Assembly: GCF_004022215.1 (NCBI RefSeq)
Contig: NZ_SAUZ01000009.1
Coordinates: 1-64,000 of the forward strand
Reading direction: 5' to 3'
Length of the DNA: 64,000 nt
Source: Paenirhodobacter populi
GTDB lineage: Bacteria > Pseudomonadota > Alphaproteobacteria > Rhodobacterales > Rhodobacteraceae
The position numbers and the translations under genes are program-made. Positions 236-13,809 of this stretch are shown piece by piece (within the stretch, counting starts at the first letter, position 1; every line of letters begins with the position of its first letter). Below the pieces are notes generated by a model. The model had not been told where the DNA came from. It saw only the letters and a list, made by a program, of their open reading frames with translations, and did no database searches.

Positions 236-1231
236 TCAGCCGAAATAGCGCACGCGGAAGGCGTCGATCGCCACGGCGATGAAGATCATCACGCCTCCGA
301 TCATGCCGACATAGAAGGACGGCACGTTGATGATGGCGAGGCCGACCTGAATCACCGTCAGCAGCAGCACCCCGCCAAGCACGCCCAGCACGTTGCCCCG
401 GCCGCCGAAGACGCTGACGCCCCCGATGATCGGCGCCGCGATCGCGTAGAGCAGATAGCTCGACCCCTGGTTCGAGGTGATCGCCATCTGCCACGAGGCC
501 AGCAGCACCCCCGCCAGCGCCGCCAGAAAGCCCGAGATGGTATAGGCGATGACCTTGACCCGATCGACCCGGATACCGGCCGAATTCGACGCCACCGGAT
601 TGCCGCCCACCGCATAGATCGACCGGCCGAGCACGGTGCGTTGCAGCACCACCCCCATCGCGATCAGCGCGATCAGGAACACCACCGGCATCAGGGGCCA
701 GCCGCCGATCGTCGCCTGCCCGATCCAGACATAGCCGTCGGACAGGTTGGTCAGCGTCTTGCCCTGCGTCAGCGCCAGCAGCGCGCCTTGCAGGATGATC
801 ATCATCGCCAGCGTCTCGATCAGCGACACCATCTTGAGCCGGGTGATGCAGATCCCGTTGAAGAAGCCGATGAAGGTCCCCACCGCCAGCCCGACGAGCA
901 TCGCGATGAACCACGGCAGGCCGAGGTCGGAATAGGCCAGCGCCCCCACCGCCGCCGAAAACCCGGCATTCGCGGGGATCGACAGGTCGATCTCGGCTAC
1001 CAGCAGCGGCAGCGCCACCGCAAGGCCGAGCATTCCCAGCACGGTCGCCTGCACCATCACGTTTTGCAGGTTGAACACGGTCAGGAAGAATTCGTTGAAG
1101 GCGCCGAACAGGATCACCAGCGCGATCAGCCAGATCCAGACGACGTTGTGCAGCACCCAGCCCAGAATGGCGGTGCCGTTCACCCGGGCCGCGGCCGGGG
1201 CGGTTGTGCTGTTGACGGTTGCATTGCTCAT
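236..1231 (-). CDS. Sugar ABC transporter permease (RbsC/XylH type)
   Basis: 331 residues, almost wholly hydrophobic, with about eight to ten membrane helices. Family landmarks are the EIDLSIPANAG stretch near residue 80, the GGNPVASNSAGI loop near residue 215 and IIGGVSVFGGRG near residue 270. The protein should form the inner-membrane channel of a carbohydrate importer (CUT2 class), working as a homodimer with the double ATPase encoded just upstream. A start 11 codons further out is possible. I chose the ATG at 1231 because AGGAG lies just ahead of it and because the outer start would lie next to the stop of the ATPase gene. The gene lies between the ATPase and the KGSADH-type ALDH in one operon. 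Confidence 0.92.
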   Translation of the reverse strand: MSNATVNSTTAPAAARVNGTAILGWVLHNVVWIWLIALVILFGAFNEFFLTVFNLQNVMVQATVLGMLGLAVALPLLVAEIDLSIPANAGFSAAVGALAYSDLGLPWFIAMLVGLAVGTFIGFFNGICITRLKMVSLIETLAMMIILQGALLALTQGKTLTNLSDGYVWIGQATIGGWPLMPVVFLIALIAMGVVLQRTVLGRSIYAVGGNPVASNSAGIRVDRVKVIAYTISGFLAALAGVLLASWQMAITSNQGSSYLLYAIAAPIIGGVSVFGGRGNVLGVLGGVLLLTVIQVGLAIINVPSFYVGMIGGVMIFIAVAIDAFRVRYFG

Positions 1232-1260
1232 GCCCGACTCTCCTGTCTTGTGCGGATGCG

Positions 1261-2772
1261 TCATGCCTGCACCGAGGCGCGCAGACGCTCGACGGTGATG
1301 TCCTCTCCCGTCAGGGTTTCCTTGATGTCGCCCTGCCCGAAGACGCAGACGCGATCGACGGCGCGGACGAGTTCGTCGGTGTCGGTCGACACGATGATGA
1401 CCGCCACGCCGGTGTTGCTGAGCGCGTCGATGATGCGCAGCACGTCCTGTTTCACGCCGACGTCGATGCCGCGCGTGGGTTCATCGACGATCAGCAGGCG
1501 CGGATCGGTGGCCAGCACCCGGCCAAGGCAGACCTTCTGCTGGTTCCCGCCGCTGAGCGTGTCGACGGCATATTCCGGGCCGGGGGATTTGACCCCCATC
1601 GCGCCGAAGTAGCGCGAAACGACGGCGGCCTCGGCCGCGCGGTCGATGAAACCGAAGCGCGCCCGCGACGGCAGCGAGGACAGCGCGATGTTCTGCCCGA
1701 TCGACATCTGCCCCACCGCGCCGTCCCGGCGCCGGTCATCGGACAGAAAGGCGATCCCGGCGTCGAGCGCCATGCGCGGATCGCCCGGCAGGCCGGTTTC
1801 CACGCCGTTCATCGTCAGCCGTCCGCGCGCCGGATAAAGGCCGAAGATCGCCCGGGCGAGCTCCTTGGCCCCCGCCCCGGGCAGGCCGGTGAAGCCCACG
1901 ATCTCCCCCGGTGCGATGTCAAGCGCCGACAGCGCCAGATGCCGCCCCCGCACCTCGCGCAGGCTGATCGCCGGCGCCTTGCCCGCATGGTCGCGCCGCG
2001 CGCGCTGGAACAGCGTCAACCCGCGCCCGAGCACGAGTTCGGACAGCTGTTCAGAGGTCATGGCGCGCACATCCTCGGACCCGCCGGCAAGGCTGCCGTC
2101 GCGCAGGACGGATACCGCGTCGCAGATCTCCAGAATCTCGTCGTTGTAATGCGAGATGAAGATGAAGGTCACGCCTTCCGCCTTCAGCCGCCGCATGAAG
2201 TCGAAAAGCTGGCGACGGTCGGCGACGGTCAGCGCTGCGGTGGGTTCGTCGAGGATGATGACCGTGCCGCCGGAAAACATCGCGCGCAGGATGTTCAGCT
2301 TGCGCCGCGCCACCGCGTCGAGCCGCCCCGCCAGCGCCGCCGGATCGATCCCCGATCCGTCGAGCATCCGCGCCGCATCCGCCCGCAGGGCCTTCCAGTC
2401 GACAAGCCCGTTGCGCACCGGCCAGATGCCCAGCATCAGGTTTTCCGCCGCCGTCATGTTGTCGATGATCATCGGTTCCTGCGTCACCAGGAACACGCCC
2501 GCCTCTTCCATCGCCTTGACGTCCACCCGCTCAAGCGGCCGGCCGTTCATGACGATCCGCCCCGAGGTCGGCGTGCGCTGGCCGGAGATGACCCCCACCA
2601 GCGTCGATTTGCCGGCGCCGTTCTCGCCCAGAAGCCCGTGGATCGTGCCGCGGCGGATGTCGAGCGTCACGCCCCGCAGCGCCTTGACCGGGCCGTAGCT
2701 TTTGGCCACGTCGTCGATCCGCAGGATCACGTCATCCGTGGCGGTCCAGCCGCCTGTGTCGTGTATCGTCAT
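1261..2772 (-). CDS. Sugar ABC transporter ATP-binding protein, double nucleotide-binding domain (RbsA/XylG type)
   Basis: 503 residues with two ABC domains, as in RbsA, MglA and XylG. Domain 1 has Walker A GENGAGKST (49-57), a Q loop near 98, Walker B VIILDEP (171-177) and an H-loop SHY near 208. Its signature position reads LDAVARRKLNILRA instead of a recognisable LSGGQ. Domain 2 has the usual degenerate Walker A (GLPGAGAKE, about 296-304), an intact LSGGNQQK (406-413) and Walker B LLIVDEP (426-432). Only the site pairing the first Walker A with the second signature looks canonical. The gene lies between the binding protein (68 bases upstream, with a stable hairpin in the gap) and the permease. 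Confidence 0.93.
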   Translation of the reverse strand: MTIHDTGGWTATDDVILRIDDVAKSYGPVKALRGVTLDIRRGTIHGLLGENGAGKSTLVGVISGQRTPTSGRIVMNGRPLERVDVKAMEEAGVFLVTQEPMIIDNMTAAENLMLGIWPVRNGLVDWKALRADAARMLDGSGIDPAALAGRLDAVARRKLNILRAMFSGGTVIILDEPTAALTVADRRQLFDFMRRLKAEGVTFIFISHYNDEILEICDAVSVLRDGSLAGGSEDVRAMTSEQLSELVLGRGLTLFQRARRDHAGKAPAISLREVRGRHLALSALDIAPGEIVGFTGLPGAGAKELARAIFGLYPARGRLTMNGVETGLPGDPRMALDAGIAFLSDDRRRDGAVGQMSIGQNIALSSLPSRARFGFIDRAAEAAVVSRYFGAMGVKSPGPEYAVDTLSGGNQQKVCLGRVLATDPRLLIVDEPTRGIDVGVKQDVLRIIDALSNTGVAVIIVSTDTDELVRAVDRVCVFGQGDIKETLTGEDITVERLRASVQA

Positions 2773-2840: not shown

Positions 2841-3923
2841 TCAGGTGTAGGGAATGCCCCAGTCCTTTTCCGCGACCGCCCCCCAGTGGCGCGGATCCCC
2901 CGCATTGTCGGCATTGATGACGAAGGGCGGGATGATCAGGGTCGGGCCGGTCTTGCCCTCGACGATCTCGCCCCTTTCCCAGAAGTATTTCGGGTTCTCA
3001 TAGGTGCCGAGCGGCACCGCCTCGCCGTTCAGCGCGTGCTTCACGATCATCTCGACCGCGATCTCGCCATAGGCGATCGGGTCCTGCGACACGCATGCAT
3101 CCATGAAGCCGTCCTGAATCCATTTCAGCGCGACCGGCTCGCCGTCGATATCGACGAAGATGACATGGCCATCCTCGCCCACCTTCTTCCAGCGGCCGCG
3201 CTGCTGAAGCGCCGTGGCGATGCCGCGCGCGGGCGAATCCGAAGGCGCGTGCACCGCGTCGAGATCCGGAAATTCCGACAGGGTGGACAGCGTGACCGAC
3301 AGCATCTGGTCGAGCTGGCCCTCGGTCGGGCGTTGCAGGTAGCGGATCTCGGGATACTGGGCGAAGACGGAATCCATCCCCTCCTTGCGCAGCCGCCATG
3401 CGACCGAGGCGAGCGCGCCATAGCAGTTCAGCACCGTGCCCTTCGGGCTGCCGTATTTCTGCGTCAGGCGATCGACGATCTCCTGCGCCGCCATCACGCC
3501 GCCCAGAAAGTTGTCGAAGCTGACGGTGATCGCCACCTCGCCGCCATCGGCCGGGGTGTCGATGATCCCCACCGGGATGTTCTGCTGGTTGTAGCGGCGG
3601 ATGGCCGAGACGATCGCCTGACTGTCGATCGGGTCCGAGATGATCGCCGAGGGCCGCGACAGCAGCAGGCTCTGCCATTGCTCAAGCTGCCGGGTATTGT
3701 CGAAATTGGCGTTGGTCGCCTGAAAGGCGCCCGAATTGGCCTGAACGGCGCGCTTCACCGCCTCTTCCTGAATGACGAAGAAATAGTAGTCGAGGCTCTT
3801 GTTCGAATAGGGGATCGACAGGCGAGACTGCGCGAACGCGCCCTGCCCCATCATCACCCCAAGACCAAGCGCCGCGCCCCCTGCCAGCACACCGCGCCGG
3901 TTCACTCCCTTACGCATCTCCAT
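2841..3923 (-). CDS. Periplasmic sugar-binding protein of the ABC importer (type 1 fold)
   Basis: 360 residues. The N-terminus has a twin arginine (NRRGVLAGG, about 8-16), then a hydrophobic stretch ending GAFAQ near residue 32, so export is probably by the Tat route. The mature part looks like the RbsB/XylF-type Peripla_BP_4 group: SIPYSNKSLDYYF after the signal, SRPSAIISDPIDSQAIVSA near 90-105, and GIIDTPADGG near 120. It should capture the sugar and deliver it to the permease/ATPase pair. The start at 3923 follows GGGAGG at good spacing; the second Met two codons in cannot be excluded. It is the first gene of its operon, with operator A only 26 bases upstream. The ligand is unknown. Confidence 0.9.
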   Translation of the reverse strand: MEMRKGVNRRGVLAGGAALGLGVMMGQGAFAQSRLSIPYSNKSLDYYFFVIQEEAVKRAVQANSGAFQATNANFDNTRQLEQWQSLLLSRPSAIISDPIDSQAIVSAIRRYNQQNIPVGIIDTPADGGEVAITVSFDNFLGGVMAAQEIVDRLTQKYGSPKGTVLNCYGALASVAWRLRKEGMDSVFAQYPEIRYLQRPTEGQLDQMLSVTLSTLSEFPDLDAVHAPSDSPARGIATALQQRGRWKKVGEDGHVIFVDIDGEPVALKWIQDGFMDACVSQDPIAYGEIAVEMIVKHALNGEAVPLGTYENPKYFWERGEIVEGKTGPTLIIPPFVINADNAGDPRHWGAVAEKDWGIPYT

Positions 3924-3948: not shown

Positions 3949-3965
3949 ATGTAGTAATACTAGAT
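3949..3965 (-). promoter_or_regulatory. Operator A of the RpiR-type regulon, sugar-transporter promoter
   Basis: The forward strand reads ATGTAGTAATACTAGAT, one of four near-identical copies in the locus. On the reverse (coding) strand a TTGACA -35 match lies at 3978-3983. A -10 candidate, TATTAC, sits 18 bases downstream inside the operator, so a bound protein would block the promoter. A second A+T-rich hexamer (TATAAT, complement of 3964-3969) lies too close to that -35 to pair with it. The motif resembles the TGTARTWWWAYTACA pattern I remember for HexR, an RpiR-family protein. Assignment to the local regulator is an inference. Confidence 0.7.
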
Positions 3966-4132
3966 TATAAGTGATTCTGTCAAGAGATTGCGGCGGACCG
4001 GCCTGTCTGAAATCGCGGATCTAGTGCGGCGATTTCATCGGGTGACCTGATTTTTATCCCGTAATCATAGCCGATTACGCCGAGATCCTGAGAGGGAGCA
4101 CGGCCTGACGGCGCAGGCCATGCCCTTACGGA

Positions 4133-4149
4133 ATGAAGTTTTACTATAT
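4133..4149. promoter_or_regulatory. Operator B of the RpiR-type regulon
   Basis: ATGAAGTTTTACTATAT, matching the other three copies except for A in place of T at position 4 and the purine variation at position 11. It overlaps the end of rpiA (the last base of the stop codon) and lies 184 bases from operator A. That places it as an auxiliary upstream site for the transporter promoter, possibly for looping. Confidence 0.55.
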
Positions 4150-4856
4150 TATCGCATCCGGACGTAGGACGTGCCGTCGAAACAGCCCACCACCATGCCC
4201 GCCGCCTCGCGCGTGAAGAGGCCGTTTTCCACCACGCCCGGAATGCGGTTCAACTCGATCTCCAGCGGTGCGGGATCGGCGATCACCGGGCCGCAATGGC
4301 AATCGAGGATGAAGTTCCCGCTATCGGTCACCACCGGCTGGCCGTCGCGCATCCGGCGCTCGATCCGGATGTCGCGGATGCCGTGATCGGCAAGGCATCC
4401 GGTCACCATGCGCTCGGTCTGTTTCCAGGCGAACTGCACCACCTCGACCGGCAGTGGAAACCGGCCCAGACAATCGACGATCTTGGTTTCGTCGCAGATG
4501 CAGATCATCCGTTTCGAGGCATGGGCGACGATCTTTTCCCACAGGAGGCAGGCGCCCCCGCCCTTGATCATGTTGAAGCGGCGGTCGATTTCATCCGGCC
4601 CGTCGATGGTCAGGTCGATCTCGCCGATCTCGTTCGGGTCGGTGATCCCGATCCCCACCTCGCGGGCCACGTCGATGGTGGACCGCGAGGTCGTGGTGCA
4701 GGTCAGCTTCAGCCCCTCGGCCACATGCCGGCCCAGTTCGCGCACGAAGAAATGCGACGTCGTGCCCGAGCCGAGCCCGAGCTTCATCCCGTCGCGCACG
4801 AAATCCTGAATCACGCGCCGCCCGGCGACCCGTTTGGCCTCGTCTTGCTGGCTCAT
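4149..4856 (-). CDS. rpiA: Ribose-5-phosphate isomerase A
   Basis: 235 residues, close to the usual RpiA length. Family motifs are present in order: GLGSGTT (27-33), a TTTSRST loop near 54-60, DGPDEID (85-91) holding active-site aspartates, and KGGGACLLWEK (98-108) with the catalytic Lys/Glu pair. The enzyme interconverts ribulose 5-phosphate and ribose 5-phosphate in the cytoplasm. It is the last gene of a leftward operon with the RpiR regulator, HAD phosphatase, sugar kinase and ALDH, so the kinase product probably feeds the pentose phosphate pool as ribulose 5-phosphate. GGAGGA precedes the start. As part of a catabolic operon it is probably a pathway-specific copy and not the housekeeping one; that part is inference. 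Confidence 0.93.
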   Translation of the reverse strand: MSQQDEAKRVAGRRVIQDFVRDGMKLGLGSGTTSHFFVRELGRHVAEGLKLTCTTTSRSTIDVAREVGIGITDPNEIGEIDLTIDGPDEIDRRFNMIKGGGACLLWEKIVAHASKRMICICDETKIVDCLGRFPLPVEVVQFAWKQTERMVTGCLADHGIRDIRIERRMRDGQPVVTDSGNFILDCHCGPVIADPAPLEIELNRIPGVVENGLFTREAAGMVVGCFDGTSYVRMR

Positions 4857-4899
4857 TCCTTCCTCCTCCCGCGCGGTCCCTGCCGCGCCTCTTCCGGTT

Positions 4900-5742
4900 T
4901 CAGATCTTGTCGGTCTGCCAACTGTCCAGCGCGGGCAGCTGGTCCGGGAACTGGCTGCCGCTTGCGATGGCGATGGCGGTTACCAGCATGTTGGTGACCA
5001 GATGGTGGTTCAGCCGCGACGCGAGCGGCGTCATCAGCTCGGTCCGGTCGTAGGGCAGCACCGCGATCACCGCGTCCGACACCTGCGCAAGCGGGCTGTC
5101 CCCGGCGGCGACCGACACCACCCGCGCGCCCCCCGCCCGCGCGGCGACGGCGACCTCGACCGTCTGTTTCGTATGCCCCGACTGGGAAAAGATCAGCGCG
5201 ACCTCCCCCGGACGGGCGCTTTCGGCGTGCATCCATTGCACCTGCCGGCCAAGCAGCGCCTGACAGCGCATCCCCAACCGCTGGAACTTGTGTTCCGCAT
5301 CCAGCGCGTTGACCTCGGAAATCCCGGTGGCGTAGATCCCGGTCCAGCTTGCCGCCTGCAACAGCCGCGCCCCCTCGGCCACCTGCGCGGGATCCAGATC
5401 CTCGGCCAGCCGCTGGATCGCGTTCAGCGAATTGCGGCAGGTCTTGCGCACGATGTTGTCGATGCTGTCCTGCGGCCCGATCTGTTCATAGACGAACGGC
5501 GCCGAGGGCACGAGGCTCTGCGCCAGATGCAGCTTGAAATCCTGATAGCCGTCAAAGCCGAACCGGCGGCAGAACCGCATGATCGTCGGATCGCTGACCG
5601 AGCAGGTCTCGGACAGGCGCGCCATGCTCATATGGATCACCTTCGAGGGCGCGGAGCCGACGAAATCGGCGACGCGCCGTTCGGCGGGGCGCATGTCCTC
5701 GCGCTCCTGAAGGATCCTTTGCAGCAGGCTGGCGGCGGTCAT
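4900..5742 (-). CDS. RpiR/MurR-family transcriptional regulator (HTH plus SIS sugar-phosphate domain)
   Basis: 280 residues. The N-terminal HTH_6 region (about 1-75) contains SMARLSETCSVSDPTIMRFCRRFGF, typical of RpiR proteins. A SIS domain follows (about 125-260), with SQSGHTKQTV at 186-195 as the phosphate-sugar loop. Such proteins sense phosphorylated sugars and repress, or less often activate, catabolic genes. The start at 5742 is set by AAGGAG eight bases before ATG; longer versions run into the HAD gene. It is the only local DNA-binding protein among the sugar genes, so it is the natural candidate for the four 17-bp operators at 3949, 4133, 9487 and 9672. The inducer is unknown; a kinase product such as a ketopentose phosphate is plausible. 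Confidence 0.92.
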   Translation of the reverse strand: MTAASLLQRILQEREDMRPAERRVADFVGSAPSKVIHMSMARLSETCSVSDPTIMRFCRRFGFDGYQDFKLHLAQSLVPSAPFVYEQIGPQDSIDNIVRKTCRNSLNAIQRLAEDLDPAQVAEGARLLQAASWTGIYATGISEVNALDAEHKFQRLGMRCQALLGRQVQWMHAESARPGEVALIFSQSGHTKQTVEVAVAARAGGARVVSVAAGDSPLAQVSDAVIAVLPYDRTELMTPLASRLNHHLVTNMLVTAIAIASGSQFPDQLPALDSWQTDKI

Positions 5743-5756
5743 GGTCTCTCCTTGGG

Positions 5757-6428
5757 CTATTCGGCGGCGCTGGCTTTCCGCCCGTGCTGCAACAGATCGG
5801 CCAGACGGGTCAACCGATGACCGGCGGGAACCGCGACTTCGGCGCCGCCGCCCCATGGCACGACGTAGAAAGGCACCCCCGCCGCCGCCGCCGTCGCCTG
5901 ATCGACGCGGGTGTCGCCGACATAGGCCCATGTGCCCGGAGTCAGGTCCATCGCCGCCGCCACGGCGCGCAGATGCCCGGGGTCCGGCTTGCACGCCGGC
6001 ACCGCATCGGCGCCGATCGCCGCCTCGAACAGCCCGTCCAGTCCAAGCTGCGACAGCACCTTGCCCGTCACCGCATGGTTCTTGTTGGTGCAGATGCCAA
6101 GCCGCACCCCGGCCGCGTGCAGCGCGCCCAGATCCTCGCGCACATGATCGAAGAAGCGCGTCCGCCCGGCCGGATCGTCCAGATAGGCCCGCAGATAGCC
6201 GTCGAAGGCCCGCGCCACGGCGGCTTCGTCATGCGCGATGCCCTTGTCGTCGAGGATGTCGCGGATCAGCCGGTGCGGGCCGTTGCCGATGAAACGTTCG
6301 ACATAGGTGGGATCCAGCTCCGGCCAGCCGTTGCGCGCGAAACCCGCGTTCAGGGCCGCCGCGATATCGGGGGCGCTGTCGATCAGCGTGCCGTCGAGGT
6401 CGAAGATCAGGGCTGAATAGGCTGGCAT
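5757..6428 (-). CDS. HAD-family hydrolase, phosphoglycolate phosphatase-like
   Basis: 223 residues. HAD motif I is FDLDGTLIDS (9-18) with Asp10 as nucleophile and Asp12 as acid/base. Motif II is CTNKN near 118-122, and motif IV is YVGDTRVDQ near 170. The short alpha-helical cap between residues 15 and 85 matches the Gph/PGMB subclass. The enzyme dephosphorylates a small phosphorylated substrate. Placed between a sugar kinase and an RpiR regulator, it could remove 2-phosphoglycolate or an unproductive sugar phosphate formed by the pathway. The gap to the regulator is 14 bases and to the kinase stop 11 bases, so the genes are co-transcribed. The true substrate cannot be read from the sequence. 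Confidence 0.85.
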   Translation of the reverse strand: MPAYSALIFDLDGTLIDSAPDIAAALNAGFARNGWPELDPTYVERFIGNGPHRLIRDILDDKGIAHDEAAVARAFDGYLRAYLDDPAGRTRFFDHVREDLGALHAAGVRLGICTNKNHAVTGKVLSQLGLDGLFEAAIGADAVPACKPDPGHLRAVAAAMDLTPGTWAYVGDTRVDQATAAAAGVPFYVVPWGGGAEVAVPAGHRLTRLADLLQHGRKASAAE

Positions 6429-6439
6429 CGGGCGGGCTC

Positions 6440-7957
6440 CTAATGGTCAAGAACGGGATCGCCGAGCGCGGCGAAGCTGTCGCGCAGCAGCGGATAGAGG
6501 CTGCGGTAGATCGGATGGGCACGGGCATAGAGGCGCACGGCCCCGGGCTCCGGGCTTTCGCGGGTCAGGGCGCGGCAGCGCGCGGCGGCGACACCGGCAT
6601 CGGGCCAGACGCCCACCGCCATCCCGGCCACCAACGCGGCGCCGAAGGCCGCGCCCTCCGCCGCGCCTTCGGTGGTGACCACGTCGCAATCGAAGAGATC
6701 GGCCTGCATCTGCCGCCACAGGGGCGCCCGCGCCCCGCCGCCCGAAGCCTTGACGATATGCCCGTCGATCCCCATCGGCCGCATCAGGGCGTGCATGTCG
6801 GCAAAGGCATGGACCACGCCCTCCATCAGCGCGCGGGCGGCATCGCCCCGGCCATGCCGCGCGGTCAGCCCGACAAAGGCGCCGCGTGCCTCGGTATCCG
6901 GATGCGGGCAGCGCTCGCCGTTCAGATAGGGCAGGAACAGCAGCCCCCGCGCACCCGGCGGGCTTGCCGCCGCCTCGGCGACGATCGCCTCGAAGGACAG
7001 CGCGGCACCGTCCGCCCCCCGGCAGAACGTCTCGCGGAACCAGCTCATCGCCCCGCCGGCGTTCAGCGACACGCCCATGCAGTGCCATTTGTCCGGCGCG
7101 ACATTGCAGAACACCTGCAATCTGCCATCCGGGTTTTCCTGTGGCGCGTCGAGCGCGGCGGCAAGTATCCCCGCCGTGCCGATGGTGGTCTGCAATTCGC
7201 CCGGCGCGATCACGCCCGAGCCGATGGTCTGGATCACGCTGTCGCCGCCACCGCCCGCGACGGGTACGCCCTCGGGCAGGCCGAACAGCGCCGCACCGCG
7301 GGCCGAGACCCGCCCGGTGACCACCTGCGATTCAAACACCGGCGGCAGAATGTCCGGGTCGATCCCCGCAAGTTCGATCAGCCCCGTCGCCCATCGCCGG
7401 GCGCGGACGTCGAACAGCCCGGTGCCCGAGGCGTCCGAGACCTCGGACGCCACCTCCCCCGTCAGGCGCAGGCGCAGATAGTCCTTGGGGTTCAGCATCA
7501 GGGCCATGCGCGCGAACAGATCGGGCTCGTGATTGCGCATCCACATGATCTTGCCGCCGGTATAGCCGACCAGCATCCGGTTGTTCGTCAGCGACAGCAG
7601 CCCCTCAACCCCGCCCGCCGCCTCGGTCAGGGCGGCGCATTCCGGGCCGTTGCGCTGATCGTTCCACAGGATCGCCGGGCGCAGCACCCGGTGCCCCGCG
7701 TCCAGCGGCGTCAGCCCGTGCATCTGCCCCGACAGGCCGATGCACAGGATCTCGACCCCCGGCGCCCGGGCAAGCGCCCCGGCCACCGCCTTGCGCGCGC
7801 CGATGACCCACAGTTCGGGGTCCTGTTCCGTCCAGCCGGGATGCGGCTGCGACAGCGGATAGGTCGCGGTATCCGCCGCGATCACCGCGCCATCGGTGCC
7901 GATCAGCAGCGCCTTGCACCCCGAGGTGCCGATGTCGATGCCCAGAAGCGCCTGCAT
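6440..7957 (-). CDS. xylB: FGGY-family carbohydrate kinase, xylulokinase-like
   Basis: 505 residues, a normal length for XylB. The first actin-like lobe starts GIDIGTSGCKALLI. GLSGQMHGL (near 75) and LWNDQRN (near 100) are the sugar-binding features of xylulokinases. The second lobe carries the GGGGDS nucleotide loop near residue 235 and ASGGGARAPLW near 405. Expected reaction: ATP plus D-xylulose (or a related ketopentose such as D-ribulose) to the 5-phosphate. With rpiA in the same operon, ribulose 5-phosphate is as likely a product as xylulose 5-phosphate, so the symbol is by similarity only. The gene starts three bases after the stop of the upstream ALDH gene. Confidence 0.85.
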   Translation of the reverse strand: MQALLGIDIGTSGCKALLIGTDGAVIAADTATYPLSQPHPGWTEQDPELWVIGARKAVAGALARAPGVEILCIGLSGQMHGLTPLDAGHRVLRPAILWNDQRNGPECAALTEAAGGVEGLLSLTNNRMLVGYTGGKIMWMRNHEPDLFARMALMLNPKDYLRLRLTGEVASEVSDASGTGLFDVRARRWATGLIELAGIDPDILPPVFESQVVTGRVSARGAALFGLPEGVPVAGGGGDSVIQTIGSGVIAPGELQTTIGTAGILAAALDAPQENPDGRLQVFCNVAPDKWHCMGVSLNAGGAMSWFRETFCRGADGAALSFEAIVAEAAASPPGARGLLFLPYLNGERCPHPDTEARGAFVGLTARHGRGDAARALMEGVVHAFADMHALMRPMGIDGHIVKASGGGARAPLWRQMQADLFDCDVVTTEGAAEGAAFGAALVAGMAVGVWPDAGVAAARCRALTRESPEPGAVRLYARAHPIYRSLYPLLRDSFAALGDPVLDH

Positions 7958-7960
7958 GGC

Positions 7961-9442
7961 TCAGGCTCCGACGCCGTGATGCAGCCGGACATGCTTGAAG
8001 TTGAAATACTCAAGCAGCCCCTCGCGCCCGTGTTCATAGCCGATGCCGCTTTGCTTGCGGCCGCCATAGGGGGCGTTCATGATCCCGGCATCGACATTGT
8101 TGATCGCCACATTGCCGTAATCGAGGCCCGCCGACAGGCTCTGAATCTCGGTCAGGTCGCGCGCATAGACATAGGAGGCCAGCCCATAGGGCGTATCGTT
8201 CGCATGCCGGATCGCCTCAGACAGATCGTCATAGGGGGCGACGCCGACGAGGGGGCCAAAAGTCTCCTCCGTCATCACCAGCATTTCATGCGTGCAATCG
8301 GCCAGAACCGTCGGGCGGAAGAAATGCCCGCCCGCATATTCCGCCCCCTCGGGCGCATGACCCCCGGCGATCAGCCGCGCCCCTTTGGCCAGCGCATCCG
8401 CCAGATGCGCCCGTGTCTTCGCCAGCGGCTCGGCCAAGGCCATGGCCCCAAGATCGGCATCCGGGTGCGCAAGTCCGTCTTGCACGCTCAGCGCCTCCGC
8501 CGCGCGGCCGAGGCCCGCCAGAAATTCCTCATAGACCCCACGCTGCACGTAGATGCGGTTGATCGCGATGCAGATCTGCCCGCAATTGCGAAAGCTGCGC
8601 CGGGCCGCGCCCTTGACCGCCGCCGCGATATCGGCGCTTGCGGTCACCACCATCGGGCAATTGCCGCCGAGTTCGAGCGACATCCGCTTCACCTGCGGGC
8701 AGCTTTGCTGGATATGCAGGCCGACGGCGCTTGACCCGGTGAAGGCGATCTTGTCGACCTGCGGATGGTCGACCAGCGCCTGCCCGACCTGCGAGCCCCT
8801 GCCCGTCAGCACGTTGACGACGCCGGGCGGGATCCCCGCCTCGGCGCATTTCGCGGCGATGGCCAGCGCGGTGAAGGGCGTGATCTCGGCCGGCTTGATG
8901 ACGATGGCGCAGCCCGCCGCAAGGCTCGCGCAGAGCTTCCAGCCTACCAGTTCCGCCGGATAGTTCCACGGCGTGATCGCGCAGACGACGCCGATCGGTT
9001 CGCGCACCACGAGGCTTTGAAATCCCGGCTGATCGTTCGGGATGATCTCGCCATGCACGCGGGTGGCCTCTTCGGCATAGAAATGGCTGGCCTCGGCGAG
9101 CTTGAGGATCTCGCCTTTCGCCTCGTTCACGGGCTTGCCCTGCTCCACGGTCATGATCCGCGCCATCTCCGCCGCATCCGCCGCGATCAGGTCGCCCAGC
9201 CGGTGCAGCGCCGCCGCCCGCGCCTTGGGCACCTGCGCCGCCCAGGGACGGAACGCGCGGCGGGCGGCGGTGACGGCCTCGTCGACCTCCGCCGGGGTCG
9301 CCGCCGCGATATGGCCGATGACCGCGCCGGTCGCCGGGTTCTCGACGGCAAGCCGCGCCCCTTCGCCGGGCCGGAACGCGCCGCCGATGAAAAGCATGCC
9401 GTCCATGCGCGCAATCGATTGGAATGGAGTCTGATCTGTCAT
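7961..9442 (-). CDS. NAD(P)-dependent aldehyde dehydrogenase
   Basis: 493 residues from the ATG at 9442. An outer start 39 codons further out would cross operator C and is rejected. Standard ALDH features are present: TPWN (157-160), the KPAEITP cofactor loop (183-189), the FTGSSAVG turn (234-241), the general base Glu257 in LELGG, and catalytic Cys291 in CGQICIA. It is the first gene of the leftward kinase/phosphatase/regulator/rpiA operon, directly behind operator C. It probably oxidises an aldehyde made during sugar breakdown, such as glycolaldehyde or lactaldehyde, or a sugar-derived semialdehyde. It is distinct from the KGSADH-type ALDH at the left edge, so the locus encodes two. Confidence 0.9.
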   Translation of the reverse strand: MTDQTPFQSIARMDGMLFIGGAFRPGEGARLAVENPATGAVIGHIAAATPAEVDEAVTAARRAFRPWAAQVPKARAAALHRLGDLIAADAAEMARIMTVEQGKPVNEAKGEILKLAEASHFYAEEATRVHGEIIPNDQPGFQSLVVREPIGVVCAITPWNYPAELVGWKLCASLAAGCAIVIKPAEITPFTALAIAAKCAEAGIPPGVVNVLTGRGSQVGQALVDHPQVDKIAFTGSSAVGLHIQQSCPQVKRMSLELGGNCPMVVTASADIAAAVKGAARRSFRNCGQICIAINRIYVQRGVYEEFLAGLGRAAEALSVQDGLAHPDADLGAMALAEPLAKTRAHLADALAKGARLIAGGHAPEGAEYAGGHFFRPTVLADCTHEMLVMTEETFGPLVGVAPYDDLSEAIRHANDTPYGLASYVYARDLTEIQSLSAGLDYGNVAINNVDAGIMNAPYGGRKQSGIGYEHGREGLLEYFNFKHVRLHHGVGA

Positions 9443-9486
9443 GAGCCTCGCCGCCTCCCCCTGCGGGTGATCCCTGTGATTCAGGA

Positions 9487-9503
9487 ATATAGCATAACTA
9501 CAT
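9487..9503 (-). promoter_or_regulatory. Operator C of the RpiR-type regulon, ALDH/kinase/rpiA operon promoter
   Basis: On the reverse strand the site reads ATGTAGTTATGCTATAT, differing from operator D at one base. It ends 44 bases upstream of the ALDH start. The end of the site overlaps a TATATT hexamer that would serve as -10 for the leftward operon, with a poorly matched -35 around CTTGCC. The placement fits repression by occlusion. The regulator gene lies in this operon, so control would be autogenous. Confidence 0.7.
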
Positions 9504-9671
9504 TCTGGCAAGGGGAATTTTCTGGTGCCGCGAGGGAATGCCGATGGGGCGGCGTTCAAGATCAGGCCATATTCACATGATTTCCATCCATAATATCGGA
9601 ATTCTGGCTGTCACTGTGGAAAAATCACCCCGCGCCATCACCGATCCCGCTTGACCAGAATCAATTGGTAT

Positions 9672-9688
9672 ATGTAGTTTTGCTATAT
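9672..9688 (+). promoter_or_regulatory. Operator D of the RpiR-type regulon, FAH/dehydrogenase operon promoter
   Basis: ATGTAGTTTTGCTATAT, 20 bases before the ATG of the rightward operon. A TTGACC -35 match lies at 9651-9656, so the site covers the expected -10 region. The sequence TTGAC followed by AGAATCA recurs in front of operator A, so the two promoters look related beyond the operator itself. Together with operator C this makes the 266-base divergent region a two-sided control point. Confidence 0.7.
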
Positions 9689-9708: not shown

Positions 9709-10851
9709 ATGCTACCCACCACCCCCGACAAGGCAAAGCTCGTCGGCCGCGTCTGGCGTCCGGGCATCGGCCCGTCCGTCGTGATCCTGCGCGACGGCGT
9801 GCTGATCGACGTGACCGATTCGGTCACATCCATGGCCGATTTCCTTGACAACGATCCGGCCGGGCGCTTCGACGCGCTGACGGGCGAGGTCGTCGGCACG
9901 CCCCAGGACCTCGTGCTGGAGACCGCGGAAATGGGGTATCATTCCGACCGTCCCTGCCTGCTGGCGCCCTGCGATTTTCAGGCGCTGAAGGCCTGCGGCG
10001 TGACCTTCGCGCGCAGCATGGTGGAACGGGTGATCGACGAACGCACCTCGGGCGATCCGGCCCGCGCCGACGCGCTGCGCCAGCGCATCGGCACGCTGAT
10101 CGGCGGCAGCCTGTCGAACATTCAGGCGGGGTCGGAGCGCGCCGCCGGGGTCAAGGCCGCGCTGATCGCCGAGGGGCTGTGGTCGCAATACCTAGAGGTC
10201 GGCATCGGCCCCGACGCCGAGGTCTTCACCAAGTCCCAGCCGATGTCCTCGGTGGGACCGGGCGCGCAGATCGGGGTGAACCGGATTTCGTCGTGGAACA
10301 ACCCCGAGCCCGAGGTCGTGCTGGCCGTCGACAGCCGGGGCACCATCCGCGGCGCCACGCTTGGCAATGACGTCAACCTGCGCGATGTCGAGGGGCGTTC
10401 GGCCCTGCTTCTGGGCAAGGCCAAGGACAACAACGCCTCCTGCGCCATCGGGCCGTTCATCCGGCTTTTCGACGAAGGCTTCACGCTGGCCGATGTCGAA
10501 ACCGCGACGCTGACCATGGCGGTCACCGGGCTGGACGGGTTCCGCATGTCGGGCGAGTCGAACATGGCCGAGATCAGCCGCAAGCCCGCCGATCTGGTCG
10601 CGCAGACGATCAACCCCTCGCACCAGTATCCGGACGGTTTCATGCTGTTCCTCGGCACGATGTTCGCGCCCACGCAGGACCGGGAGGAGAAGGGCTCGGG
10701 CTTCACCCACAAGCCGGGCGACGTGGTGGAAATCTCCACCCCGCTGCTTGGCACCCTGCGCAATACCGTCGTCACCTCGGACGAGGCCGCGCCCTGGACC
10801 TTTGGCACCCGGGCGCTGATGCGCAATCTTGCCGGGCGGGGGCTGCTGTGA
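9709..10851 (+). CDS. Fumarylacetoacetate hydrolase-fold protein, probable 2-keto-3-deoxy-pentonate dehydratase
   Basis: 380 residues. The C-terminal FAH fold carries SSWNNPEPEVVL (near 195-206) with the metal-binding Glu residues, GNDVNLRDVEGRSALLLGKAKDNNAS (near 220-245) and the KPGDVVEISTP strand near 340. This longer FAH subgroup is often encoded with KGSADH-type ALDH genes. Members act as dehydratases of 2-keto-3-deoxy-pentonates, giving alpha-ketoglutarate semialdehyde. The gene for the next enzyme appears to be the truncated one at the left edge. GAGGAGG precedes the ATG. It is the first gene of the rightward operon, and its stop overlaps the next start (GTGA). The substrate stereochemistry cannot be told. 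Confidence 0.82.
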   Translation: MLPTTPDKAKLVGRVWRPGIGPSVVILRDGVLIDVTDSVTSMADFLDNDPAGRFDALTGEVVGTPQDLVLETAEMGYHSDRPCLLAPCDFQALKACGVTFARSMVERVIDERTSGDPARADALRQRIGTLIGGSLSNIQAGSERAAGVKAALIAEGLWSQYLEVGIGPDAEVFTKSQPMSSVGPGAQIGVNRISSWNNPEPEVVLAVDSRGTIRGATLGNDVNLRDVEGRSALLLGKAKDNNASCAIGPFIRLFDEGFTLADVETATLTMAVTGLDGFRMSGESNMAEISRKPADLVAQTINPSHQYPDGFMLFLGTMFAPTQDREEKGSGFTHKPGDVVEISTPLLGTLRNTVVTSDEAAPWTFGTRALMRNLAGRGLL

Positions 10852-11813
10852 CCGGATGCCCCTTGAAACTGGTCGTCACCGATCAGGCCTTCGGCAACAC
10901 CCGCCACGAACGCGCGGCCGCCGAGGCCGTGGGCGCGCGCTTTGCCGAATATCAGTGCCGCAGCGAGGATGAGGCGCTGGCCGCCGTTGCCGGCGCGCAG
11001 GCCGTGCTGAACAATTTCGCCCCGATGACCCGCAAGGTGATGGCGGCGATGGCGCCGGGCGCGGTGATCGTGCGCTATGGCGTGGGTGTGGACAATGTGG
11101 ACCTTGCGGCGGCGCGGGATCTGGGCGTGCGGGTGTGCAACGTGCCCGATTACGGCGTCGATGAGGTGGCGGACCATGCGGCGGCGATGACCCTCGCGCT
11201 CGCGCGCAAGCTTGGCCGCTATGACGCGGGTATCCGCGCGAGGGAATGGAAGATCGACCGGATGGTCGACGGGCTGCGCTCGCTCCGCGACACGACGGTG
11301 GGGCTGATCGGGCTTGGCCGCATCGCGCGGGCCTATGCGGCGCGGATGGCGGTCTTCGGCTGCCGGATCACCGGGTTCGACCCCTTCGTGACCGAGGATC
11401 AGGCCCGCGCCATCGGCATCACGCCCCTGCCCCGCGAAGAGGTGATCGCCAACGCCGATGTCCTGTCGCTGCATGTGCCGCTGACGCCGGAAACGCGCCA
11501 TCTGCTCGACGCGGACGCCATCGCCCGGATGCCCGCGGGCGCGATCCTGATCAACTGCTCGCGCGGGGGGTTGGTGGATGAAGCAGCGCTCGCCGCGGCG
11601 CTGGCCTCGGGGCATCTGTCGGGCGCCGGGCTCGACGTGTTCGAGAAGGAACCCCTGCCCGCCGGCTCGCCCCTGCGGGCCGCGCCGAACATCCTTATGT
11701 CGCCGCATGCGGCGTTCTTTTCCGATGCCTCGGTCGATACGCTGCAACGGCTGGCCTCGGAAGAGGCGCTGCGGGCCCTGCGCGGCGAACCGCTGCGCTG
11801 TCCGCTGACCTGA
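10848..11813 (+). CDS. D-isomer-specific 2-hydroxyacid dehydrogenase
   Basis: 321 residues from a GTG that overlaps the upstream stop as GTGA, which implies translational coupling. The NAD-binding domain holds GLIGLGRIARAYA near 150-162. Catalytic positions follow: NCSRGGLVDE (Arg), a Glu in DVFEKEPLP and SPHAAFF (His). The protein resembles phosphoglycerate dehydrogenase/CtBP-type members. It should reduce a 2-keto acid or oxidise a 2-hydroxy acid; in this context a sugar-acid intermediate or glyoxylate/hydroxypyruvate is likely. The SDR follows after 11 bases with its own GGAGGAG site, so both belong to the operator D operon. The exact substrate is unknown. Confidence 0.88.
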   Translation: MTGCPLKLVVTDQAFGNTRHERAAAEAVGARFAEYQCRSEDEALAAVAGAQAVLNNFAPMTRKVMAAMAPGAVIVRYGVGVDNVDLAAARDLGVRVCNVPDYGVDEVADHAAAMTLALARKLGRYDAGIRAREWKIDRMVDGLRSLRDTTVGLIGLGRIARAYAARMAVFGCRITGFDPFVTEDQARAIGITPLPREEVIANADVLSLHVPLTPETRHLLDADAIARMPAGAILINCSRGGLVDEAALAAALASGHLSGAGLDVFEKEPLPAGSPLRAAPNILMSPHAAFFSDASVDTLQRLASEEALRALRGEPLRCPLT

Positions 11814-11824
11814 AGGAGGAGCAG

Positions 11825-12586
11825 ATGGACTACAGGACGAAACAGGATCTGACGGGCCGGCTCGCGCTGGTCACCGGCGCGGGTCAGGGCATCGGCGCGG
11901 CGATCGCCGAGGCCCTTGCCGCGACCGGGGCCGAGGTGATCTGCACCGACATCCTGCGCGAGAGGGCCGAGGCCACGGCCCGCGACCTGACGGACAGGGG
12001 CCTGAAGGCACGGGGTGAGGTGCTGGACGTCACCGACAGCGCCGGGATCGACGCGCTGGCCGGGCGGCTGCCGCCGCTCGACGTGCTGGTGTGCAATGCG
12101 GGCATCGTCACCAACACCCCGGCCGAGGACATGACCGACGCGGAATGGGACCGGGTCATCGCGGTGAACCTGACCGGCGTGTTCCGCACCTGTCGCGGCT
12201 TCGGGCGGCGGATGATCGCGGCGGGGCGCGGGTCGATCGTCAACATCGGCTCGATGTCGGCGCAGATCGTCAACACACCGCAGCCGCAATGCCATTACAA
12301 CGCCTCCAAGGCCGGGGTGCATCACCTGACGAAATCGTTGGCCGTCGAATGGGCAAAGCACGGCGTGCGGGTGAATGCCGTCGCGCCGACCTATGTGGAA
12401 ACGCCGCTGCTGCATGGGCTGGAAAGCCAGCCGGGGCTGATCGCGCGCTGGCTCGACCTGACGCCCGCCGGGCGGATGGGCCAACCGCATGAGATCGCCT
12501 CGGTCGTGCAGTTCCTCGCTTCGGACGCGGCCAGCCTGCTGACCGGATCCATCGTCACCGCCGACGCGGGCTATACCTGTATCTGA
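11825..12586 (+). CDS. Short-chain dehydrogenase/reductase, probable polyol or sugar dehydrogenase
   Basis: 253 residues, classical SDR. TGAGQGIG (17-24) binds the dinucleotide, NAG is at 91-93, the catalytic Ser lies in IGSMSA (about 143-145), and Tyr158/Lys162 form YNASK. Asp at the end of the second strand (CTD, about 40-42) suggests NAD preference. The C-terminal region, with PTYVETPLL and a TADAGYTC ending, is like polyol and sugar dehydrogenases. A pentitol dehydrogenase would supply a ketopentose for the FGGY kinase; a sugar 1-dehydrogenase would feed the FAH-type dehydratase branch. The sequence alone does not decide between these. It is the last gene of the rightward sugar operon. 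Confidence 0.9.
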   Translation: MDYRTKQDLTGRLALVTGAGQGIGAAIAEALAATGAEVICTDILRERAEATARDLTDRGLKARGEVLDVTDSAGIDALAGRLPPLDVLVCNAGIVTNTPAEDMTDAEWDRVIAVNLTGVFRTCRGFGRRMIAAGRGSIVNIGSMSAQIVNTPQPQCHYNASKAGVHHLTKSLAVEWAKHGVRVNAVAPTYVETPLLHGLESQPGLIARWLDLTPAGRMGQPHEIASVVQFLASDAASLLTGSIVTADAGYTCI

Positions 12587-12603: not shown

Positions 12604-12629
12604 CGCGCGGGTTCTGAAATGCCCGCGCG
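12604..12629 (+). terminator. Possible stem-loop after the SDR operon
   Basis: CGCGCGGG (12604-12611) and CCCGCGCG (12622-12629) form a perfect eight-pair stem with a ten-base loop, 18 bases after the SDR stop. No T-run follows, so this may be a Rho-assisted end or only message stabilisation. Confidence 0.35.
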
Positions 12630-12831
12630 GGATCGACCTGCCCGCACGGCGCGCGCGCCATCGCGTCAGGCCATGCCGGGCGCCCCATTTCTGCGGTTGC
12701 AATTCCGCGCCGTCCCATTAGGGTCCGTGGCAGATTGCCGCACCCTTCGCGGGGGCGGGGCCAGCGTTCATGCCGCGCCGGAACAGGATCCGGCCGGACT
12801 GCGAGCCTGTTTCCCTTCAGAGCCGGAGCCG

Positions 12832-13809
12832 ATGTTGACCAGTCCTGTTTCCGCCGACCACCATGCCGGGATGATCCGCCGCGTCGCGATGTCCTCCGCT
12901 CCGTCGCGGTCGGCGCTGGCGGCCTCGTGGAGCCGTTCCCTGCTGCATCACGGGCTTGAACCCGAATGCCGGCGGAGGCCCGAGCGCCTGTCCTCCGCCG
13001 CGCTGCGGGACCGGCGCGAGGCGGCCCGGACGCTTCTGCGGGTGGCGACGCCGATCCTCGACCGGCTGGCGGGCGTAGTGACGGAAACCGGCAGCGCGCT
13101 GATGCTGGGCCTTGCCGACGGCCTGATCGTCGAGGAACGCCTGCGCGACGCGGACCGCCCGATGTTCGGCGAGGTCGGCCTGACGACCGGCGCCCGATGG
13201 TCCGAGGCGGACGAGGGCACGAACGGCATCGGCACCGCGCTGGCGGAACGTCGCGCGATGGTGATCTGGCGCGACCAGCATTTCCACAACCGCAACCTCG
13301 CCCTGACCTGCATGAGCGCTCCGATCGAGGCGCCCGATGGCGGCAACGCGGGCGTGATCGACATTTCCTCTTGCCGCCGCGATCTGAGCGAGGGGCAGGC
13401 CCGGCTGATCGCCCTGACCGTGCAGGACGCGGCGATCCGCATCGGCAGCGAGCTGTTCCGCCTCGCGCATCCCGATGCGCGGCTGGTGACGCTGGCGACG
13501 GACCCGCATTCCGGCCCCTGCCTGATCGCCGTGGATGACAGCGACCTGATCGTTTCGTGCAACCGCGCCGCGCGCCGGATGCTGCGCCTGTCGGCCGAGG
13601 ACATCGCCCGCCATCCGCCCTTCGCCGATCTGATGCGCCAGGGCCGCGCCCGTGGCGACATCGCCGGGGCGGTCCGGTCCGAGGTGGTGCGGGCGCTGAA
13701 ACGGTCCGGCGGCAATGTGACCCTTGCCGCGCGCGATCTGCGGATCGGCCGCTCGACGCTGTATCGCAAGATCAAATCCCTCGGCCTGACCGGGCATCTC
13801 AAAAGCTGA
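12832..13809 (+). CDS. Short AcoR-like regulator (GAF plus Fis-type HTH, no AAA+ domain)
   Basis: 325 residues from ATG 12832, with GGAG shortly before; a longer open frame exists upstream but lacks a good site. The N-terminal and middle parts (about 15-200) match the GAF sensor region of acetoin/glycerol activators: the helix [18 protein letters not shown], then [15 protein letters not shown] and [16 protein letters not shown]. The C-terminus is a Fis-type helix-turn-helix, [23 protein letters not shown]. The central sigma-54-contacting AAA+ module is missing, so it should act on ordinary promoters. The neighbouring ALDH gene, 149 bases downstream on the same strand, is the likely target, with an aldehyde or alcohol as signal. 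Confidence 0.85.

Follow-up and report, generated by a model that had tools for sequence, protein, structure and literature searches.

Four candidate operators of an RpiR-family regulator in a predicted pentose-use cluster of Paenirhodobacter populi

The gene cluster and its four 17-bp sites

The DNA considered here (the window) is the stretch of 64,000 nucleotides at positions 1 to 64,000 of contig NZ_SAUZ01000009.1 of Paenirhodobacter populi (assembly GCF_004022215.1), which carries near its start a predicted pentose-use cluster with a gene for an RpiR-family regulator (rpiR) and four 17-bp copies of one near-palindromic sequence, candidate operators of that regulator. The minus strand holds, in this order, aldh, xylB, gph, rpiR and rpiA, then a gap, then sbp, atp and perm (to 236), and the plus strand holds fah, hadh and sdr (9709-12586). 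NCBIfam curated cut-offs were passed by rpiA and xylB, most other assignments being at the family level only. The genes, the sites and the hexamers of the inferred promoters are as follows.

236-1264, minus strand: perm, sugar ATP-binding cassette (ABC) transporter permease, below curated cut-offs
1261-2772, minus strand: atp, sugar ABC transporter ATP-binding protein, below the cut-offs of sugar-specific models
2841-3923, minus strand: sbp, ribose-type sugar-binding protein, family-level assignment
3949-3965, minus strand: site O-sbp, ATCTAGTATTACTACAT on the gene strand, located at the promoter predicted for the ABC transporter unit
3978-3983, minus strand: -35-like TTGACA of the inferred sbp promoter, conserved in relatives as cttgaca
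4133-4149, minus strand: site O-rpiA, ATATAGTAAAACTTCAT on the gene strand, beginning with the final base of the rpiA stop codon
4149-4856, minus strand: rpiA, ribose 5-phosphate isomerase A, above the curated cut-off
4900-5742, minus strand: rpiR, RpiR-family regulator (HTH_6 and SIS domains), fourth gene of the aldh unit
5757-6428, minus strand: gph, HAD phosphatase (phosphoglycolate-phosphatase-like), below the cut-offs of phosphoglycolate phosphatase models
6440-7957, minus strand: xylB, xylulokinase-family FGGY kinase, above the TIGR01312 cut-off
7961-9442, minus strand: aldh, succinate-semialdehyde-type aldehyde dehydrogenase, below curated cut-offs
9487-9503, minus strand: site O-aldh, 44 bp ahead of the aldh ATG
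9506-9511, minus strand: -35-like TTGCCA of the inferred, weaker aldh promoter
9651-9656, plus strand: -35-like TTGACC of the inferred fah promoter, conserved in relatives as CTTGAC
9672-9688, plus strand: site O-fah, 20 bp ahead of the fah ATG
9709-10851, plus strand: fah
10848-11813, plus strand: hadh, D-2-hydroxyacid dehydrogenase family protein
11825-12586, plus strand: sdr, short-chain dehydrogenase

The four copies had been reported in an initial annotation of this DNA, and all of them were recovered at the same coordinates and on the same strands. The consensus ATGTAGTTWTRCTATAT, with up to three mismatches allowed, matches four places in the window (five strand matches), whereas 100 dinucleotide-preserving shuffles averaged 0.01 matches and never exceeded 1; the same four places are the only ones across all 91 contigs of the genome (4,777,466 bases), where the reversed-pattern control gave one match per strand. 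The inverted repeat ATRTAG-N5-CTAYAT, by which the copies had been described, is exact in those at 9487 and 9672 and has one mismatch in those at 3949 and 4133. The palindromic form ATNTAGYNNNRCTANAT occurs without mismatch at three places genome-wide, all within the cluster locus.

The promoters were read by eye from conserved hexamers. O-sbp lies 25 bp ahead of the sbp start codon and 12 nt behind its TTGACA, and is the strongest site in the rpiA-sbp gap when scored with a matrix built solely from the four sites of the window; O-fah lies 15 nt behind its TTGACC. The right half of O-aldh is part of the extended -10-like TGCTATATT (9486-9494), and most aldh operators of the relatives are ATGCTATATT or similar, their right half likewise doubling as an extended -10-like element preceded by a weaker cttg. 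Three of the sites would thus lie over core promoters, a position that fits a repressor. Moreover, rpiR sits 14 nt behind gph inside the aldh unit, so that repression of the aldh promoter by its product would extend to rpiR itself. The centre-to-centre distances within the two pairs of sites, O-sbp with O-rpiA and O-aldh with O-fah, are 184 and 185 bp.

Conservation of the sites in orthologous clusters

In the genus, the regulator gene was found in the own genome only (18 genomes, E up to 1e-40), and the same was true of the class (289 genomes, E up to 1e-50); a search of 149 genomes of the family gave best matches outside the own genome that were 33-35% identical. The comparison was therefore drawn from a single wider scan of genome contigs, which yielded 43 loci, of which 38 were kept as orthologous; the other five (L072, L073, L074, L076 and L077) were dropped because their regulator is only 26-31% identical. 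The regulator orthologues of the 38 loci are 67-92% identical over the matched part, their hosts include Paracoccus, Labrys, Kaistia, Rhizobiales, Pseudomonas, Erwinia, Yersinia and Acinetobacter, among others, and the order aldh-xylB-gph-rpiR-rpiA-sbp-atp-perm, searched for with the proteins of the window only, is identical in all 38 (with only the end of rpiR in L071). The cluster is plasmid-borne in two Paracoccus species (L132 and L133), and the regulator of Kaistia hirudinis (L069) branches apart from those of the other Kaistia, so that the whole cluster with its operators appears to be transferable.

The same matrix was applied to these loci, with single-base shuffles of the same intergenic regions as the null. 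Loci with broken frames (L067 and L068) or with most of the regulator missing (L071) were kept in the site counts and left out of the regulator tree and the pocket comparison described below. A lack of conservation of the sites ahead of orthologous operons had been named in the initial annotation as a result that would refute it, and the sites are conserved: upstream of aldh, the best site exceeds 95% of the null in 38 of 38 loci and 99.9% in 31 of them, and for the 29 loci whose rpiA-sbp gap reaches 150 bp or more, the best site there exceeds 95% of the null in every case and 99.9% in 26. A second site upstream of aldh exceeds the 95% level (9.56) in 33 of 38 loci and reaches at least 7.4, the weak threshold, in all; the corresponding figures for the second site of the long gaps are 20 and 27 of 29. 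Where the gap is shorter than 150 bp (seven Pseudomonas, Erwinia and Yersinia), no sbp-side site exceeds the 95% level (0/9) and the pair upstream of aldh is retained. The sbp-side pair thus comes and goes with the gap, as would be expected if the short-gap clusters have no separate sbp promoter.

As to the site behind rpiA, counted with no score floor, 28 of the 29 long-gap loci have one of their top two matches no more than 40 bp from the rpiA end; it stands at +3 or +4 after the last codon in 27 of them and at +23 in L065. Its scores run from 23.5 to 8.0, with 0.3 in L063, and its right half is degenerate in many relatives, the left half alone being kept in four Kaistia loci (L040, L041, L044 and L045).

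A copy of the cluster from Paracoccus pantotrophus, fetched after the matrix had been fixed, gave its top four matches in 18.8 kb at the four expected places (scores 22.5, 19.2, 16.7 and 12.1, the next best being 7.3); this is a close relative of loci already used. As a negative control, the regions upstream of 29 fah homologues (53-62% identical) were scored in members of the class lacking the regulator according to the 289-genome search, apparently the same genome draw; none of the 29 passed, and the best score was 5.35 against at least 12.2 in the orthologues. The control loci, taken with about 1.5 kb on each side of fah, hold no relatives of rpiR, xylB, rpiA, sbp, gph or hadh. When seven close relatives were aligned, the operators and the -35 hexamers stood out as conserved islands and the DNA between them had drifted, which suggests that the islands are under constraint.

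Upstream of aldh, the seven Pseudomonas loci (L042, L043, L046, L050, L051, L055 and L064) carry CTAGY-type operators (e.g., AGCTAGCAATACTATAT and ATCTAGTAATGCTACGT) and no TGTAGT half-site; two of these genomes were checked for RccR and a HexR-like protein, and both have them. This drift possibly insulates the cluster from RccR, the RpiR-family regulator compared below, or it may reflect one event in the lineage.

The regulator in comparison with RccR, HexR and other RpiR-family proteins

The assignment of the protein at 4900-5742 to the RpiR family, made earlier from the translation, is confirmed by both domains, HTH_6 (PF01418, 78.5 bits against a cut-off of 28.3) and SIS (PF01380, 40.4 bits against 25). 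Among solved structures it is closest to 8ju9 and 8k3b (E about 1e-45), of which 8k3b is Pseudomonas aeruginosa RccR with 2-keto-3-deoxy-6-phosphogluconate (KDPG) (PMC10810197) and 8ju9 is likewise cited as RccR (PMC12713135). In a tree of 50 proteins, the 36 orthologues form one clade (100/100) separate from RccR and the HexR-like proteins; the tree is midpoint-rooted, and its several long branches make the deeper order unsure. On this comparison the regulator represents a third RpiR group. Two Pseudomonas genomes carry all three types, namely, the regulator orthologue, RccR and a HexR-like protein, the last label being provisional. The recognition helix reads VSDPTI/VxRFCR in the group, ISEPTIVRFCR in a Pseudomonas RccR (L125) and VSEPTVNRFCR in a HexR-like protein.

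The short 15-bp site of RccR, TGTAGT-N3-ACTACA, was footprinted and measured by surface plasmon resonance, the footprinted sites being TGTAGTAAAACTACA and TGTAGTTTTACTACT (PMC5489143), and each of the four sites in the window agrees with palindromes of this type at 12-13 of 15 bases, a resemblance in sequence. The likening of the motif to a HexR site in the initial annotation was right in kind, but RccR gives the nearer match: over the 15 central columns of the matrix, where the maximum is 21.3, the RccR sites reach 20.7 and 16.6, and the Vibrio HexR consensus TGTAATTAAATTACA (PMC11906056), which is one base per half-site away from TGTAGT-N3-ACTACA, reaches 11.9. The Pseudomonas HexR site has been given as TTGT-N7/8-ACAA (PMC5902321). 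By sequence, then, the nearest characterised site is that of RccR and not that of Pseudomonas HexR.

RccR shares with the window regulator the HTH_6 and SIS domains, a nearly identical recognition helix and the phosphate-binding positions. Its 15-bp operator resembles the candidate operators of the window, and it has sites in the core promoter and two sites at one promoter, as the window system appears to have. It differs as a global regulator of carbon flow that has KDPG as its ligand and also uses 28-bp sites (PMC5489143, PMC10810197), whereas the window regulator is encoded within its own presumed target cluster. Identity with RccR was rejected on 35% identity, the separate clade, the coexistence of RccR in two Pseudomonas genomes and differences at pocket positions K270 and R277. 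HexR likewise belongs to this family of sugar repressors, with a different half-site and with zwf, edd and gap-1 as its reported targets; in the own genome, matches to the window consensus are confined to the cluster, no search aimed at the Entner-Doudoroff genes having been made. Identity with HexR was likewise rejected, on an NCBIfam HexR score of 187.1 bits against a cut-off of 296, the separate clade and the same two pocket positions.

The NCBIfam AlsR score of the window regulator is 118 bits against a cut-off of 400. The enzymes of the Escherichia coli RpiR/AlsR cluster also differ from those of the window cluster. The E. coli protein is an RpiR-family repressor of a gene for a ribose-5-phosphate isomerase (repression of rpiB is mentioned in PMC5902321), as the window regulator is predicted to be. 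As in the window system, an RpiR regulator, NanR, has near-palindromic sites, five in number, spread across a single sugar cluster in Streptococcus pneumoniae; NanR differs as a reported activator with a different operator and sugar (PMC12713135).

The effector pocket

Nine contacts to KDPG have been given for RccR (PMC10810197). In all 36 members of the group compared, the phosphate positions 139, 183, 185 and 188 are S, S, S and T, and the contacts H148 and R152 are also kept. At the same time, H164 is replaced by K, Q, N, T or R, K270 by D in 36/36, and R277 by I (35) or L (1), the window regulator having D and I at the latter two positions; both RccR and both HexR-like proteins retain K270 and R277. 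These substitutions were the same in three MAFFT modes. Note that a lysine stands at the neighbouring position 276 in 36/36 and that the C-terminal tails have diverged, so that an alignment shift is possible and the loss of the KDPG site is probable rather than proven. Retention of the phosphate contacts together with the changes at K270 and R277 suggests an effector that is a sugar phosphate other than KDPG. Since a xylulokinase-type kinase and RpiA are encoded in the unit of the regulator, a pentulose 5-phosphate would be the simplest candidate.

Proposed mode of action and alternative explanations

The four sites are very probably operators of the protein encoded at 4900-5742, acting as the local repressor of the pentose-use cluster. 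In the absence of the sugar, a dimer of the regulator (or the halves of a tetramer) would occupy the TAGT-N3-ACTA-type palindromes, and those lying between the -35 hexamer and the start of three promoters would block RNA polymerase. The units repressed would be aldh-xylB-gph-rpiR-rpiA, sbp-atp-perm and fah-hadh-sdr, and the regulator would repress its own gene through the first of these. A phosphorylated intermediate of the cluster, for example a pentulose 5-phosphate formed by the XylB-type kinase, would bind the SIS domain and free the DNA. The fourth site, O-rpiA, may belong to the sbp promoter, as an auxiliary operator or a roadblock; it could otherwise serve as a roadblock for read-through from rpiA or as a loop partner. 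The proposal of the initial annotation that a local RpiR-type regulator is tied to three operons thus gains support from the conservation of the sites, their co-occurrence with the regulator and the RccR-like helix. Such a system would be ordinary in kind, a local sugar repressor of the RpiR family with RccR-type operators and probably a different ligand.

Several observations weigh against this reading. The palindrome ATRTAGYNNNRCTAYAT at one mismatch occurs at 6 places in the own genome (4 for the control) and at 0-6 places in each of 147 further genomes from the family, where the control was usually the more frequent; it is no commoner here than in some genomes without the regulator. A palindrome with mismatches is therefore unspecific, and the case rests on the quality, position and conservation of the sites and not on the rarity of weak matches. 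A generic sigma-70 consensus scanner called no promoter at the three places. Several of the secondary sites are weak, as seen from the 33/38 and 20/29 that exceed 95% of the null, and some post-stop sites are half-sites at best (8.8 in the four Kaistia, 8.0 in L053 and L054, 0.3 in L063). Furthermore, the 38 loci are related to one another and transfer accounts for part of their spread, so that they do not amount to 38 independent tests, and the null used for conservation rests on single-base shuffling. Finally, fah was not found in 12 of the 38 loci and lies at the far end in L065, which leaves the "fah" site of these loci facing another gene; six of the 12 have no sdr nearby. Loci in which fah was not found, e.g., the four Kaistia and L053 and L054 (Aureimonas), retain a second site upstream of aldh, and in Yersinia similis (L071, 8001-8231) both sites upstream of aldh persist where the regulator was matched over its last 77 residues only.

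The sites might instead be bound by another regulator of the host, either one of the RccR/HexR type encoded elsewhere or the product of the adjoining gene for a GAF and Fis-type helix-turn-helix regulator, with the local RpiR protein controlling something else. RccR does read a nearly identical 15-mer (PMC5489143), two of the Pseudomonas hosts encode RccR and a HexR-like protein in addition to the cluster, and a comparison confined to the genes of the window may miss another shared regulator. However, among the matches listed (three of the five other RpiR-family matches of the own genome), identity to the regulator is 22-28%, against 33-37% for the Pseudomonas RccR and HexR-like proteins, so that no RccR or HexR orthologue is evident in the own genome; the Acinetobacter and Paracoccus aminovorans genomes gave no second match at E 1e-10. 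The GAF-Fis gene (12619-13809, plus strand) corrects the earlier statement that no other regulator is present in the locus, but it lies outside the conserved cluster, with a single 30% match (L052) in the 38 loci; of the two regulator genes of the window, only rpiR recurs in the 38 clusters, and the two annotated Paracoccus plasmid copies have no other annotated regulator inside the cluster. We regard binding by another regulator as very improbable. It is scarcely credible that the sites are alike only because promoters are A+T-rich or because the intergenic DNA is of shared descent, with no bound protein: the sites do stand out as A+T-rich against GC-rich surroundings, and the clusters are related, but one palindrome is common to four separate places, dinucleotide shuffles give an expectation of 0.01 and the own-genome control one match per strand, and the DNA between the operators and hexamers of close relatives has drifted where these have not.

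The assumption that the regulator acts as a repressor only is less secure. It could activate, or both activate and repress, with an RpiR tetramer linking the two sites of each pair, one over the promoter and the other about 150-245 bp away, much as has been put forward for pneumococcal NanR; paired sites are present in both regions, full-length RpiR regulators crystallise as tetramers, a NanR preprint proposes tetramers bridging scattered sites (PMC12713135), and the two RccR copies at aceE, 68 bp apart, show apparent cooperativity (PMC5489143). On the other side, the pair distances in the relatives range over 146-246 bp (two at 82 and 84) with no helical phase (mean vector 0.10-0.28 at periods of 10, 10.5 and 11, over 39 and 28 pairs), the nearly equal distances of the window are not general, and the main sites overlap the inferred core promoters, which favours repression. 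Activation or a dual role is possible, although we consider it the less likely mode. Fixed-phase DNA looping, hinted at by the 184 and 185 bp, was rejected on the same distances and their lack of phase, although a tetramer may bridge sites with no fixed phase. A more elaborate reading takes the group as a third HexR/RccR-like subgroup that kept the TGTAGT/ACTACA code and exchanged the effector pocket, so that RccR, which senses KDPG, and a relative sensing a pentose phosphate would recognise almost the same DNA word, with the CTAGY half-sites of Pseudomonas possibly avoiding crosstalk and the paired operators bridged by tetramers; as a whole, this combination seems unlikely.

Under the repressor model, the comparison gives a candidate operator set and a probable class of inducer for an uncharacterised and apparently transferable pentose-use cluster that extends from Paracoccus to Pseudomonas and Acinetobacter. 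It also gives a candidate regulator-operator pair for sensors and a useful comparison, in which an operator word near that of RccR is probably coupled to another ligand. No prior account of the regulon, or of binding by its regulator, was found in the literature, including passages of PMC5489143, PMC5902321 and PMC5343134, most subscription papers and RegPrecise lying outside the search. The accessible text of a paper on pentose pathways (PMC6336799) mentions neither xylulokinase nor RpiR.

Neighbouring genes

Ribose binders rank second among the solved relatives of the sbp product, behind an unspecified periplasmic sugar-binding protein. The GAF-Fis gene stands directly behind sdr and ahead of an aldehyde dehydrogenase gene (to 15485). 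A further gene begins at the very start of the window on the minus strand, and both Paracoccus plasmid copies have an annotated NADP aldehyde dehydrogenase gene behind the permease gene. A second fah homologue, 56% identical, is located elsewhere in the own genome (G000:C13:1379-2509).

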